In this document: piece after piece, positions 22,250 to 48,049 of the stretch
How positions within the stretch are numbered: the stretch's first letter is position 1
Layout of the letters: each line of letters begins with the position of its first letter
Source: Chloroflexota bacterium
Lineage (GTDB): Bacteria > Chloroflexota > Anaerolineae > B4-G1 > SLSP01
Assembly: GCA_019873725.1 (NCBI GenBank)
Contig: JAIOAS010000003.1
Span: forward strand, 1 to 48,656
Direction: 5' to 3'
Length of the DNA stretch: 48,656 nt
Made by a program: the position numbers and the translations under genes
The notes under the pieces: generated by a model
Seen by the model: the letters and a program-made list of their open reading frames with translations, nothing else
What the model was told of the DNA's origin: nothing
Database searches by the model: none

Positions 22250-22375
22250 CAAGACTACCTGACTATCCAACTACCTGACTATCTGGCTACCCGACTATCC
22301 AACTACCTGACCATCTGGCTACCTGACTACCCGACTATCCAACTACTCGACTACCTGACTATCTGACTACCCTAT
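22250..22375. repeat. CTGACTAC-word repeat block
   Basis: About 125 bp made of words such as CTGACTAT, CCGACTATC, CAACTACCTGAC and CTGGCTAC. It is the inverse vocabulary of the TAGTCG blocks at 9452, 15370 and 37968. No ORF of note; 22376-22487 likewise shows no gene. Confidence 0.7.
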
Positions 22376-24189: not shown

Positions 24190-24355
24190 AGAAATGAGTA
24201 AAGAGAAATGAGTAAAGAGAAATGAGTGAAGAGAAATGAGTAAGGAGAAATGAGTTGAGTAAGGAGAAATGAGTAAAGAATCAATTCACTCCCTACTTCT
24301 TACTCCTCACTCTTTACTTCTTACTCTTTACTTCTTACTCTTTACTCTTTACTGG
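24190..24355. repeat. Long inverted short-word repeat between pgk and tpiA
   Basis: About six GAGTAAAGAGAAAT-like units (24190-24280) face about six CTTACTCTTTACTT-like units (24295-24355). Transcript through the region could fold into one long imperfect hairpin between two glycolytic cistrons. No coding capacity is recognised. Confidence 0.75.
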
Positions 24356-25531
24356 TTACTTGTCTTGCAACGCCGCCACACCAGGCAGCACTTTGCCTTC
24401 GAGGAATTCCAGGCTCGCGCCGCCGCCCGTGGAAACGTGGCTGACCTTGTCGGCAACACCGGCCTTCTTCACCGCCGAGGCCGAGTCGCCGCCGCCGATG
24501 ACAGTCACGGCGTCCAGATCTGCCAGCACCCGCGCGATGGCGAAGGTGCCCTCGGCAAAGTTCGGCATCTCGAACACGCCCATTGGGCCATTCCAGGCCA
24601 CCGTCTTGGCCGTCTTGAGAATTTCGGCATATTTGGCAACCGTCTGCGGGCCGATGTCCAGCAGCCGCCAACCGGGTTCAACCGCATCTACGGAGACAAC
24701 CTTACGATTCGCTTCGTTATCGAAGGCATCGGCCACCACCCCATCCACCGGCAGCACCAGCTTGTCGCCACCCTCGGCCAGGAGCGCCTTAGCGGTATCG
24801 AGCACGCCGTCTTCCACCAGCGAATCGCCCATCTCCAGGCCCTGCGCCTTGAAGAACGTGTTCGCCATCCCGCCACCGATGAGCACTTTATCGGCGATCT
24901 TCAACATGTTCTGGATGACGGCAATCTTGTCGGACACCTTCGCACCGCCCAGGATCACCACGTAAGGATGCTCGGCGGCATCGGTGGCCTTGCTGAGGAA
25001 CGCCACCTCTTTCTCCATCAGGAAACCGGCAACGGCGGGCAGATAGTGCGCCACGCCTTCGGTGGACGATTGCGCGCGGTGCGCCGTCCCAAAAGCGTCC
25101 ATCACAAAAATCTCGCCCAGCTTCGCCAGTTGTTCGGAAATCTTAGGGTCGTTCTTGGTCTCCGCCTTGTAGAAGCGGACGTTTTCCAGCAGCATCACCT
25201 CGCCGGGTTGCAGCGCCGCCGCCATCGCTTCGACCTCCGGGCCGATGCAATCGGGCGCGAACTTGACCGGCTTGCCCAGCAGCTCCGCCAGACGGTCGGC
25301 CACCGGCTTGAGGCTGAACTCGGCCTCGTAGCCCGTTCCCGCCGGGCGGCCCAGGTGCGACATCAGCACGAGCGCCGCGCCCTGTTCCAGAATGTAGTTG
25401 ATCGTCGGCAGCGTCGCCTTGATGCGCTTATCGTCGCTAATCACACCGTCTTTGATCGGCACGTTGAAATCCGCGCGCATCAGCACGCGCTTGCCCTGCA
25501 AATCGACATCACGAACGGTTTTCTTGTTCAT
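24356..25531 (-). CDS. pgk: Phosphoglycerate kinase
   Basis: Substrate-level ATP-forming step of glycolysis; 391 residues, a normal length. The N-terminal substrate site [20 protein letters not shown], the hinge region and the nucleotide-site motifs GPMGVFE and [15 protein letters not shown] are all present. GAGGTG precedes the ATG. It lies between gap and tpiA; both intergenic gaps are about 160-180 bp and filled with repeats instead of promoters that I can recognise. Confidence 0.97.
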
Positions 25532-28146: not shown

Positions 28147-28314
28147 GCGGATCGCCAGATCCGCGCCCCCATCTCTCGCTTCAGCGGATCGCCAGATCCG
28201 CGCCCTCATCTCTCGCTCCAAGCGGATCGCCAGATCCGCGCCTTATCTCTTGCTCCAAGCGGATCGCCAGATCCGCGCCCCCATCTCTCGCTTCAGCGGA
28301 TCGCCAGATCCGCG
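28147..28314. repeat. Five-copy hairpin array, 37/38-bp period
   Basis: GCGGATCGCCAGATCCGCG occurs at 28147, 28184, 28222, 28259 and 28296. Each is a 7-bp stem GCGGATC/GATCCGC with loop GCCA. The 18-19-bp spacers are near-identical CCCCCATCTCTCGCTTCA variants. The array fills the space upstream of the yvcK promoter. It shares its hairpin with the 15-copy array at 47038. Confidence 0.9.
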
Positions 28315-36962: not shown

Positions 36963-37967
36963 ATGCTAAAAGTCGGAATTCTCGGTATGGGGGGCATGGG
37001 ATGGCACCATGCCCGGCGCTATCCACACGTGCCTGATGCGCAGATTGTGGCGATTGCGGACGTTATTCCAGAGCGTCTGGAAGCGAAGGATGCCGTCGCC
37101 ATCAATCTGGCAGGCGGCGAAGCCACCCTTGATCTCTCGCGGGCGGCGCGCTACCCGGAGGCCGCGCAGTTGATCGCCGAAGCGGACGTAGATGTGGTCG
37201 ACATCTGCCTGCCCACGTATTTGCACGCGCAGTACGCCATCGCTGCGCTGGAAGCCGGGCTGCACGTGCTGTGCGAAAAGCCGATGGCGCTCTCTGTCGC
37301 CGACTGCGACCGCATGATCGCGGCGGCGCGCGCGGCGGACCGACGGCTGATGATCGCGCAGTGCCTCCGCTTCTGGCCGGAGTATCTCTACCTCCAAAAA
37401 CTGATAACGGAACAACCGTTGGGTGCGCTGCTTTCCTTGAATATGTTCCGCATCGGCGGACGCCCGCGCTGGTCGCCGGACAACTGGTTCCTCGATCCCA
37501 AGCGCAGCGGCGGCGCGCTACTCGACCTGCACATCCACGACGTAGACTACGTCAATGCCGTGTTCGGTATGCCGGATAGTCTGTACGCGACGGGCCGCAC
37601 CACCGAGGAGCCGGAGAGCTACGACATCATCCATGCCTGTTTCAACTACGACGGCGGCCCGCAGATTCACATGCACGCGGGATGGAGCACGGCGCAAGTG
37701 CCGTTCCAGGCGGGATTCGATGCGTGGTTCGAGCGCGGCTTCGTGCGCTACGCGGATTGGAAGCTCACCGTCTTCGACAACCTGGAGAAGACGGAAGGCC
37801 ATCCCGCCGATATCGAACCGGGCGACGGCTACCTCAACGAAATCGCCTACTTCCTCGATTGCGTCGAAACCGGCACGCAGCCTACCCGCTGTCTACCCGA
37901 ATCCACCCGCGACTCCATCGCCCTGATCGACAAAGAGATCGAGAGTATCGAGTCGTTAGTCCGATAG
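36963..37967 (+). CDS. Gfo/Idh/MocA-family oxidoreductase
   Basis: NAD(P)-dependent sugar or inositol dehydrogenase, 334 residues. The Rossmann motif is VGILGMGGMGWHHARRY, the catalytic Lys lies in the EKPMALSVADCD motif, and the C-terminal substrate domain includes GGALLDLHIHDVDYVN (conserved Asp and His). AGGAG lies upstream of ATG 36963. It follows the aldo/keto reductase across repeat copy 4. Substrate is likely a sugar or cyclitol handled with the neighbouring isomerase. Confidence 0.93.
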   Translation: MLKVGILGMGGMGWHHARRYPHVPDAQIVAIADVIPERLEAKDAVAINLAGGEATLDLSRAARYPEAAQLIAEADVDVVDICLPTYLHAQYAIAALEAGLHVLCEKPMALSVADCDRMIAAARAADRRLMIAQCLRFWPEYLYLQKLITEQPLGALLSLNMFRIGGRPRWSPDNWFLDPKRSGGALLDLHIHDVDYVNAVFGMPDSLYATGRTTEEPESYDIIHACFNYDGGPQIHMHAGWSTAQVPFQAGFDAWFERGFVRYADWKLTVFDNLEKTEGHPADIEPGDGYLNEIAYFLDCVETGTQPTRCLPESTRDSIALIDKEIESIESLVR

Positions 37968-38102
37968 TCGTTAGTCGTGTAGTCGTTAGTCGTTAGTCGT
38001 ATAGTCGTGTAGTCGTGTAGTCGTGTAGTCGTTAGTCGTGTAGTCTGAAATTCCTTGACTACCTGACTACTTGACTACCTGACTACCTGACTACCTGACT
38101 AC
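37968..38102. repeat. TAGTCG/GACTAC long inverted repeat
   Basis: About ten TAGTCGT-type words (37968-38045) face six GACTACCTGACTAC words (38055-38101), able to pair as a long hairpin. It lies in the gap between two sugar-cluster genes, next to the ribosome site of the second. Confidence 0.8.
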
Positions 38103-45651: not shown

Positions 45652-45786
45652 AGACAGTCACGTCAGGCATCTCTACAACAAGATGCAGTAGATCCAAAAA
45701 TGCTCCAAGGGGATCGTCAGATCCCCGTTCTGGTCTGGATCTGGCGATCGACCAAGCAAAATTGGATCTACTGAGACTGTCTGACG
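45652..45786 (+). promoter_or_regulatory. Foldable leader of infC-rpmI-rplT
   Basis: An outer stem AGTAGATCCAA (45687-45697) / TTGGATCTACT (45762-45772) is perfect over 11 bp. It encloses the hairpin GGGGATC-GTCA-GATCCCC (45709-45726) and the weaker GGTCTGGATCTGGCGATCGACC (45732-45753). AGACAGTC (45652-45659) can pair with GACTGTCT (45775-45782), while CGTCAG (45661-45666) can pair with CTGACG (45781-45786); the two choices overlap. In Bacillus this operon is controlled by an L20-binding leader; whether that applies here is inference. Confidence 0.55.
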
Positions 45787-46970: not shown

Positions 46971-47000
46971 AAAAAGGCGACGCTGATGCGTCGCCTTTTT
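46971..47000 (+). terminator. Terminator of the infC operon
   Basis: AAAAAGGCGACGC/GCGTCGCCTTTTT with loop TGAT, a perfect 13-bp stem ending in five T. Confidence 0.93.
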
Positions 47001-47037
47001 GTTTGACGGCAACGAGCCGCGCAAAATTGTGCTTCAA

Positions 47038-47784
47038 GCGGATCGCCAGATCCGCGGACGGCAGCGAGCCGCGCAAAACCGTGCTTCGAGCGGATCGCCA
47101 GATCCGCGGACGGCAACGAGCCGCGCAAAACCGTGCTTCGAGCGGATCGCCAGATCCGCGGACGGCAGCGAGCCGCGCAAAACTGTGCTTCGAGCGGATC
47201 GCCAGATCCGCGGACGGCAGCGAGCCGCGCAAAACTGTGCTTCGAGCGGATCGCCAGATCCGCGGACGGCAGCGAGCCGCGCAAAACTGTGCTTCGAGCG
47301 GATCGCCAGATCCGCGGACGGCAGCGAGCCGCGCAAAACTGTGCTTCGAGCGGATCGCCAGATCCGCGGACGGCAGCGAGCCGCGCAAAACTGTGCTTCG
47401 AGCGGATCGCCAGATCCGCGGACGGCAGCGAGCCGCGCAAAACTGTGCTTCGAGCGGATCGCCAGATCCGCGGACGGCAGCGAGCCGCGCAAAACTGTGC
47501 TTCGAGCGGATCGCCAGATCCGCGGACGGCAGCGAGCCGCGCAAAACTGTGCTTCGAGCGGATCGCCAGATCCGCGGACGGCAGCGAGCCGCGCAAAATT
47601 GTGCTTCGAGCGGATCGCCAGACCCGCGGACGGCAACGAGCCGCGCAAAACCGTGCTTCAAGCGGGTCGCCAGACCCGCGGACGGCAGCGAGCCGCGCAA
47701 AATTGTGCTTCGAGCGGATCGCCAGATCCGCGGACGGCAGCGAGCCGCGCAAAACTGTGCTTCGAGCGGATCGCCAGATCCGCG
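47038..47784. repeat. Fifteen-copy 52-bp array with GATC hairpins
   Basis: The hairpin GCGGATC-GCCA-GATCCGC begins at 47038 and then every 52 bp exactly to 47766 (15 copies). The rest of the unit (GACGGCAGCGAGCCGCGC, then AAAACTGTGCTTCGA) is almost invariant, with C/T and G/A changes only. At 47610 the right arm is GACCCGC (single change), and at 47662 the left arm is also changed to GCGGGTC, restoring the pair. All reading frames stay open because 52 is not a multiple of 3, so the long ORFs here are artefacts. It begins 38 bp after the rplT terminator. Confidence 0.95.
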
Positions 47785-48049
47785 TTTTGTGCCCCATTTC
47801 AGGAACATTCCCCTCGGAGCAAGAATGATGAGCCCCCGCCGAAGGTCCGCTTTTGTCGTCCACAATTTCGAGTATGATATGAGTACTGTTACCTTTTTAT
47901 CGTCACAACGACATACTTGTTGAACTCCTAACCCGGGTTAAGCAACACCGCATAGGTGCTCACTGCCTGTCTTCTGATTGTGAGGCATAACCGCAGGCCA
48001 GTAGGCCCTGTCAGTGCTGCGCAAACGGTCACAGACCGAAGGAGTAATT
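47785..48049. other. Intergenic stretch without a recognised gene
   Basis: The array gives way to non-repetitive sequence. A TATGAT (47875-47880) has no good -35, and CTAACCCGGGTTAAG near 47930 is a short palindrome that could be an operator. I see no gene here. Confidence 0.5.

Follow-up and report, generated by a model that had tools for sequence, protein, structure and literature searches.

Downstream of rplT in a Chloroflexota genome, the same short hairpin recurs at strictly regular intervals, raising the question of whether the array is a phased, functional structure or the product of a mobile repeat. The initial annotation of the window (the whole 48,656-nucleotide stretch analysed here, from contig JAIOAS010000003.1) favored the former and knew of no described system with this unit. 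We find that this last statement does not hold at the family level, as the array belongs to a system of repetitive extragenic palindromes (REPs) and REP-associated tyrosine transposases (RAYTs), and very probably represents a local tandem expansion of a mobile REP hairpin with a partner RAYT, a variant of known REP/RAYT systems.

The array and its dispersed hairpin family

Tandem Repeats Finder confirms the 52-bp spaced hairpin array of the initial annotation and places it at 47005-47784 on the plus strand, with a period of 52, 15.0 copies, 97% matches and 0% indels. Each unit joins a 34-bp flank, ending in the tag GCTTCGA or GCTTCAA, to an 18-bp REP hairpin. The first hairpin (GCGGATC-GCCA-GATCCGC; plus strand, 47038-47055; -8.3 kcal/mol including the tag) is followed by another at exactly every 52 bp, up to 47766-47783; with its tag, the array hairpin reads GCTTCGA-GCGGATCGCCAGATCCGC. 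Across the window, 39 matches to the hairpin pattern were found when allowing up to 3 mismatches, compared with 0.49 expected from shuffles. They include another, five-copy array of this hairpin (period 37/38; plus strand, 28147-28313), detected by both Tandem Repeats Finder and pattern search and missing from the initial annotation. An Rfam search of the window at gathering thresholds returned a single tRNA and no family at the array. Two other readings were rejected: reading frames stay open through the array on both strands, but the resulting repeat translations are without support, and a CRISPR array is contradicted by the segments between hairpins, which are copies of one 34-bp sequence rather than unique spacers. 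The 34-bp flank was likewise discarded as a dispersed element in its own right, since a genome-wide search recovered no occurrence outside the array.

Only seven distinct units make up the array, and 6 of the 52 columns vary. Units 4-11 share one sequence with unit 15, and variants are confined to units 1-3 and 12-14, the pattern expected from slippage or unequal recombination. The count of fifteen units in the initial annotation is correct for the sequence as assembled but is not firm, because eight neighboring units are identical over 416 bp, and an assembly of 415 contigs may have collapsed or mis-counted them.

The hairpins of units 12 and 13 read as initially described. Unit 12 (plus strand, 47610-47627) carries a change in one arm only (GCGGATC/GACCCGC) and is mismatched, whereas unit 13 (plus strand, 47662-47679) carries both changes (GCGGGTC/GACCCGC), is paired and retains no GATC. 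Folded as single-stranded DNA, the consensus, the singly changed and the doubly changed hairpins are predicted at -8.3, -4.5 and -9.3 kcal/mol, respectively, so that the one-sided change removes roughly half of the stability predicted for the fold and the second restores it. From this compensated unit, the paired stem had been proposed to be selected or copied as a unit. Taken alone, the unit is weak evidence, because 36 hairpins at loci sampled from the same genome have a single mismatched pair, and no more than four types of fully paired stem were seen there. Both parts of the proposal gain support elsewhere, from the full stems kept by the hairpins of homologous RAYTs (see below) and from tandem units that include flanking DNA.

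Beyond the window, a search of the genome and its relatives, the check suggested at the outset, recovered, in this genome, the 18-mer hairpin in 94 exact copies and in 345 copies with up to 3 mismatches, against 10 for a reversed-pattern control. Copy numbers vary strongly among relatives: a degenerate hairpin pattern matched 350 times in this genome, 60, 11 and 4 times in the congeners G002, G001 and G003, 184 times in G012 from another genus, and 0-5 times in the remaining genomes of the family. Copies occur singly, as inverted pairs and in arrays whose periods span 35-152 bp. The typical single copy is an inverted pair, or REPIN, in which GCTTCGA followed by GCGGATC-GCCA-GATCCGC faces GCTCCGA followed by GGGGAAC-GCCA-GTTCCCC. 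This REP element is built from a conserved, unpaired GCTY tag at the 5' base of the stem-loop, a 7-bp stem and a GYCA loop, and it displays the hallmarks of REPs and REPINs: a short hairpin dispersed in high copy, a tag, inverted pairs and, at one locus, a RAYT gene flanked by the same hairpin. Copies in this genome carry the tags GCTTCGA, GCTTCAA or GCTCCGA, which places them outside the GTAG and CGTC REP super-families.

A partner transposase and its relatives

The genome encodes two Y1_Tnp genes, both scoring above the cut-off of the NCBIfam ‘REP-associated tyrosine transposase’ model. One of these RAYT genes (contig C87, 9237-9794, minus strand) has array hairpins on both sides, one lying 7 nt past the stop codon and another 36 nt before the start codon; no MITE ends were seen around these crowded hairpins. 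Its assignment as a RAYT rests on a score of 92.7 bits against a cut-off of 80 for family model NF047646, with an invariant HuH motif (NHIH) and an invariant tyrosine, Y141. The protein resembles RAYT subclass 2.6 (Quentin et al. 2018, PMC6006769; group 5 of Bertels et al. 2017), whose genes are flanked by atypical, non-GTAG structures. By comparison of published motifs rather than a tree, the subclass signature (NH[LIV]H, WQ, YIH[QN]NP, spacing of about 82) is matched here by NHIH, YIHDNP or YIHNNP and a HuH-Y spacing of 80, with WE in place of WQ at the tryptophan motif. Further similarities are the length of 186, the atypical non-GTAG hairpins and the closest homologs outside the Chloroflexota, which are mostly from Bacteroidota, while the host here is a member of the Chloroflexota and not of the Bacteroidota.

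Relatives of this gene are consistently accompanied by hairpins. A homolog with 88% identity occupies the same place in a congener (locus L091, from a Chloroflexi metagenome-assembled genome, MAG), flanked by GGGGATC, GCGGATC, GGGGAAC and AGGAAC hairpins and a gctc-type tag. The predicted structure of its protein (pLDDT 93) has as best PDB match 4er8, a RAYT bound to a REP hairpin. Eight further Chloroflexota homologs (49-60% identity) each possess their own hairpins. Together, the flanks of these nine loci contain 26 perfect stems of at least 8 bp compared with 0.39 expected, a count to which L091 contributes zero as its stems are 7 bp long, and 19 of the 26 are GCTY-tagged compared with 0.01 expected. 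Stem sequence differs from lineage to lineage with pairing complete. Among homologs from Bacteroidota and related groups, most of those inspected bear hairpins of which GTTGTTGGTG/CACCAACAAC are examples, in many cases on either side of the gene, as tallied by inspection without a shuffle control. That stems change in sequence yet stay paired across RAYT homologs points to recognition by the RAYT, and these lineage-wide paired stems offer a stronger form of the covariation argument than the single compensated unit. In G012, on the other hand, where 184 hairpins occur, a single RAYT homolog was found (34% identity), and its flanks lack this hairpin; this MAG is 80% complete.

Lineage-specific variation was also apparent among the mostly Bacteroidota RAYT loci L100-L170, where most of those inspected were flanked by hairpins of the TTGTTGGTG/CACCAACAA type in lineage-specific variants, often behind a GCC-like tag. 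The second RAYT of the genome (contig C304; 2182-2811 of locus L042) is 20% identical to the first and is flanked by different palindromes, of the CCGACTGAAGTCGG and CCGGCTTCAGCCGG types, so that the genome holds two RAYT-palindrome pairs. A palindrome adjoining this second gene, GCCGACTGAAGTCGG, was considered as part of the array and rejected, having no close copy in the window.

MITEs with REPIN cores and the rplT site

Many single REPINs lie inside a miniature inverted-repeat transposable element (MITE) of about 123 bp, with ends reading CAGGGYYTTATCATTCT, 17-bp terminal repeats and 8-10-bp target duplications. The end pattern of this MITE matched 111 times in the genome, compared with one match for a control. 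Of 72 element rows, which include both strands of one element plus nested copies, 27 had flanks that agreed at no fewer than 8 of 10 bases; among shuffled pairs this held for 0.3%, and none reached 9. The dispersed copies thus possess both terminal inverted repeats and target-site duplications. The same genome contains an ISAs1-type insertion sequence (IS) whose right end is AGAGCGTTGATAAGCCCTG, reading CAGGGCTTATCAACGCTCT inwards, and given the similarity of these ends this IS or a relative is the likely mover of the 123-bp MITE. ISAs1 target duplications are of comparable length to the 8-10 bp seen here. An ISAs1-type transposase gene lies at the end of contig C73 (locus L235), where the end CAGGGCTTATCAACGCTCT resembles the ends of the 123-bp MITE and the IS terminus coincides exactly with the contig break. 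As the REPIN forms the core of a MITE with target duplications, part of REPIN dispersal proceeds by double-strand transposition, as seen for many single copies.

Such hairpin cores occur in three MITE families. The second, of about 90 bp, has a single window copy (plus strand, 45686-45773) with ends CAGTAGATCC and GGATCTACTG and an inverted pair of GCTY-tagged hairpins as its core; this copy is absent from the orthologous site in G001 and G003. Genome-wide, the family (ends CAGTAGATCC; window copy and loci L260-L289) has 90 end matches, and its 5-bp target duplication is identical in 18 of 23 cases compared with 11% of shuffled pairs. The third family is CTAG-bounded (ends TACAGCGCGGCG) and contains a GCGGATC/GGGGAAC REPIN core in G012 (L236-L255) and G002 (L189, L192). 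REPINs serving as MITE cores were not described in the literature searched, at the level of titles, abstracts and term counts.

The array itself begins immediately past a hairpin and T-run behind rplT (plus strand, 46971-47004), which, as read from the sequence, is a probable terminator. At the orthologous site the array is absent from all three congeners examined (G001, G002 and G003), each of which has the equivalent rplT terminator. G002 and G003 retain a sigma-factor gene beside this site. In G001 (L173), this gene, which follows rplT in the three remaining genomes, is replaced by unrelated sequence. On the right-hand side of the array, 29 bp (plus strand, 47808-47836) align to the CAGGG-type MITE and represent what is left of its right end (TTCCCCTCGGAGCAAGAATGATGAGCCCC); the alignment scores 48, and 500 shuffles gave no more than 27. 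A left end was not found at the array, and the array therefore cannot be classed as a MITE, for which both terminal repeats are required.

Six sites were compared between this genome and a relative, of which the C88 and infC sites gave readable empty sites; junction alignment was too poor for exact breakpoints at C53, C165, C180 and C127. In the C88 array, the element and adjoining target DNA together make up each unit, and this target DNA is present only once at the empty site in G001, which directly shows that flanking DNA was amplified together with the repeat.

Origin of the array and its place among known systems

E. coli TnpA-REP handles its tagged hairpin as single-stranded DNA, cutting and joining it. 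By analogy, the RAYT described here would recognize the tagged hairpin in single-stranded form and cut and join it, and this recognition or cleavage would keep the REP stem paired over evolution. A REPIN-cored MITE may have inserted downstream of rplT and subsequently decayed, after which one REP with 34 bp of adjoining DNA would have been duplicated repeatedly by slippage or unequal recombination, a step suggested by the identical interior units. Repeated duplication would result in a homogenized, species-specific 52-bp array, and the exact period would then be a by-product of tandem duplication.

Alternatively, the hairpins could be mere internal parts of MITEs moved in trans by DDE transposases, with an incidental link to the RAYT. 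The many single copies within MITEs bearing target duplications, the presence of such hairpins in three MITE families and the 184 hairpins of G012, where no RAYT is flanked by them, agree with this explanation. We nonetheless judge it quite improbable, as hairpins crowd both sides of the C87 gene where MITE ends were not seen, tagged or paired hairpins with lineage-specific stems adjoin nine of nine Chloroflexota homologs, and most inspected Bacteroidota homologs are similarly flanked. It is also unlikely that the array is maintained for a local function, for instance by clustering sites that bind gyrase or another protein, or by acting as a barrier to transcription between rplT and the sigma-factor gene. 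Its position straight after the rplT terminator would suit such a role, and tandem BIME-2 elements of E. coli bind gyrase (PMC2817692); however, the site is empty in three of three congeners, and similar arrays of many periods occur at unrelated loci. Effects on gyrase or transcripts, as for E. coli BIMEs, are possible, and our analysis found no evidence of a function for the array itself.

The phased arrangement initially envisaged, with all hairpins on one face of the DNA and a role in GATC methylation or chromosome organization, fares worst and appears highly improbable. It draws on the 52-bp period, equal to 4.95 helical turns, and on the 27 of the window's 280 GATC sites that fall inside the 780-bp array. 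Sister arrays are nevertheless scattered in helical phase, with modal periods of 35, 41, 54, 76, 80, 88, 91, 94, 96, 104, 117, 122 and 152 bp, which cautions more generally that regular spacing need not mean phasing. GATC is incidental to the array hairpin: the paired partner hairpin GGGGAAC-GCCA-GTTCCCC has none, and the compensated unit at 47662 keeps its stem while losing both. A conserved chromosome-organizing array is not supported either, as the orthologous site lacks it in every congener compared.

Tandem expansion of a RAYT-linked REP, the reading we prefer, has clear precedents, as REPs and REPINs of Pseudomonas and other bacteria are reiterated in tandem with flanking DNA (PMC3116915, PMC3733652). 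The REPIN clusters of Pseudomonas fluorescens SBW25 (PMC3116915) share with the present system short tagged hairpins, high copy number, inverted pairs, a flanking RAYT gene and tandem clusters that include flanking DNA, but differ in their GTAG tag, where GCTY is found here in a Chloroflexota host with many pairs inside MITEs. Similarly, the GTAG and CGTC super-families (PMC3733652) have stem-loops of similar size, a one-sided tag and clusters reiterated with flanking DNA, with tags distinct from those seen here; GTAG repeats have already been reported in Chloroflexi (PMC3733652). MITEs with ISAs1-like ends are comparable in the CAGGG ends and target duplications of the dispersed copies and in the similarly ended IS of the genome, whereas the core here is a RAYT-linked REPIN and the window array keeps only a right-end remnant. 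BrickBuilt, a minisatellite inside a Porphyromonas gingivalis MITE (PMC4596501), also associates a tandem repeat with a MITE; its 23-bp units are without spacers, and its abstract describes no RAYT-linked REP hairpin.

Judged by the literature searched, three features are new: the GCTY tag, the Chloroflexota host of a RAYT resembling subclass 2.6, and the REPIN cores in three MITE families. GCTY-tagged REPINs might constitute a further REP super-family of Chloroflexota whose cores three or more unrelated MITE families have acquired; the resulting composites would spread by double-strand transposition and perhaps also be processed by a RAYT as single-stranded DNA. We advance this proposal tentatively, with somewhat more doubt than confidence. 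As an array the locus is ordinary; as a REP system it is moderately interesting. What looked like an unknown array can be read as REP biology in a phylum that has received little study, and it comes with a defined tag, empty sites and a partner transposase. How REPs spread can be tested here, since one hairpin core is found beside a RAYT, within MITEs and in tandem arrays, and a duplicated array flank can be compared with the empty site in a sister species. The window additionally contains degenerate 7-8-bp microsatellites (GACTACC, TTACTC and TAGTCGTG types) at 22253-22372, 24190-24361 and 37951-38102.
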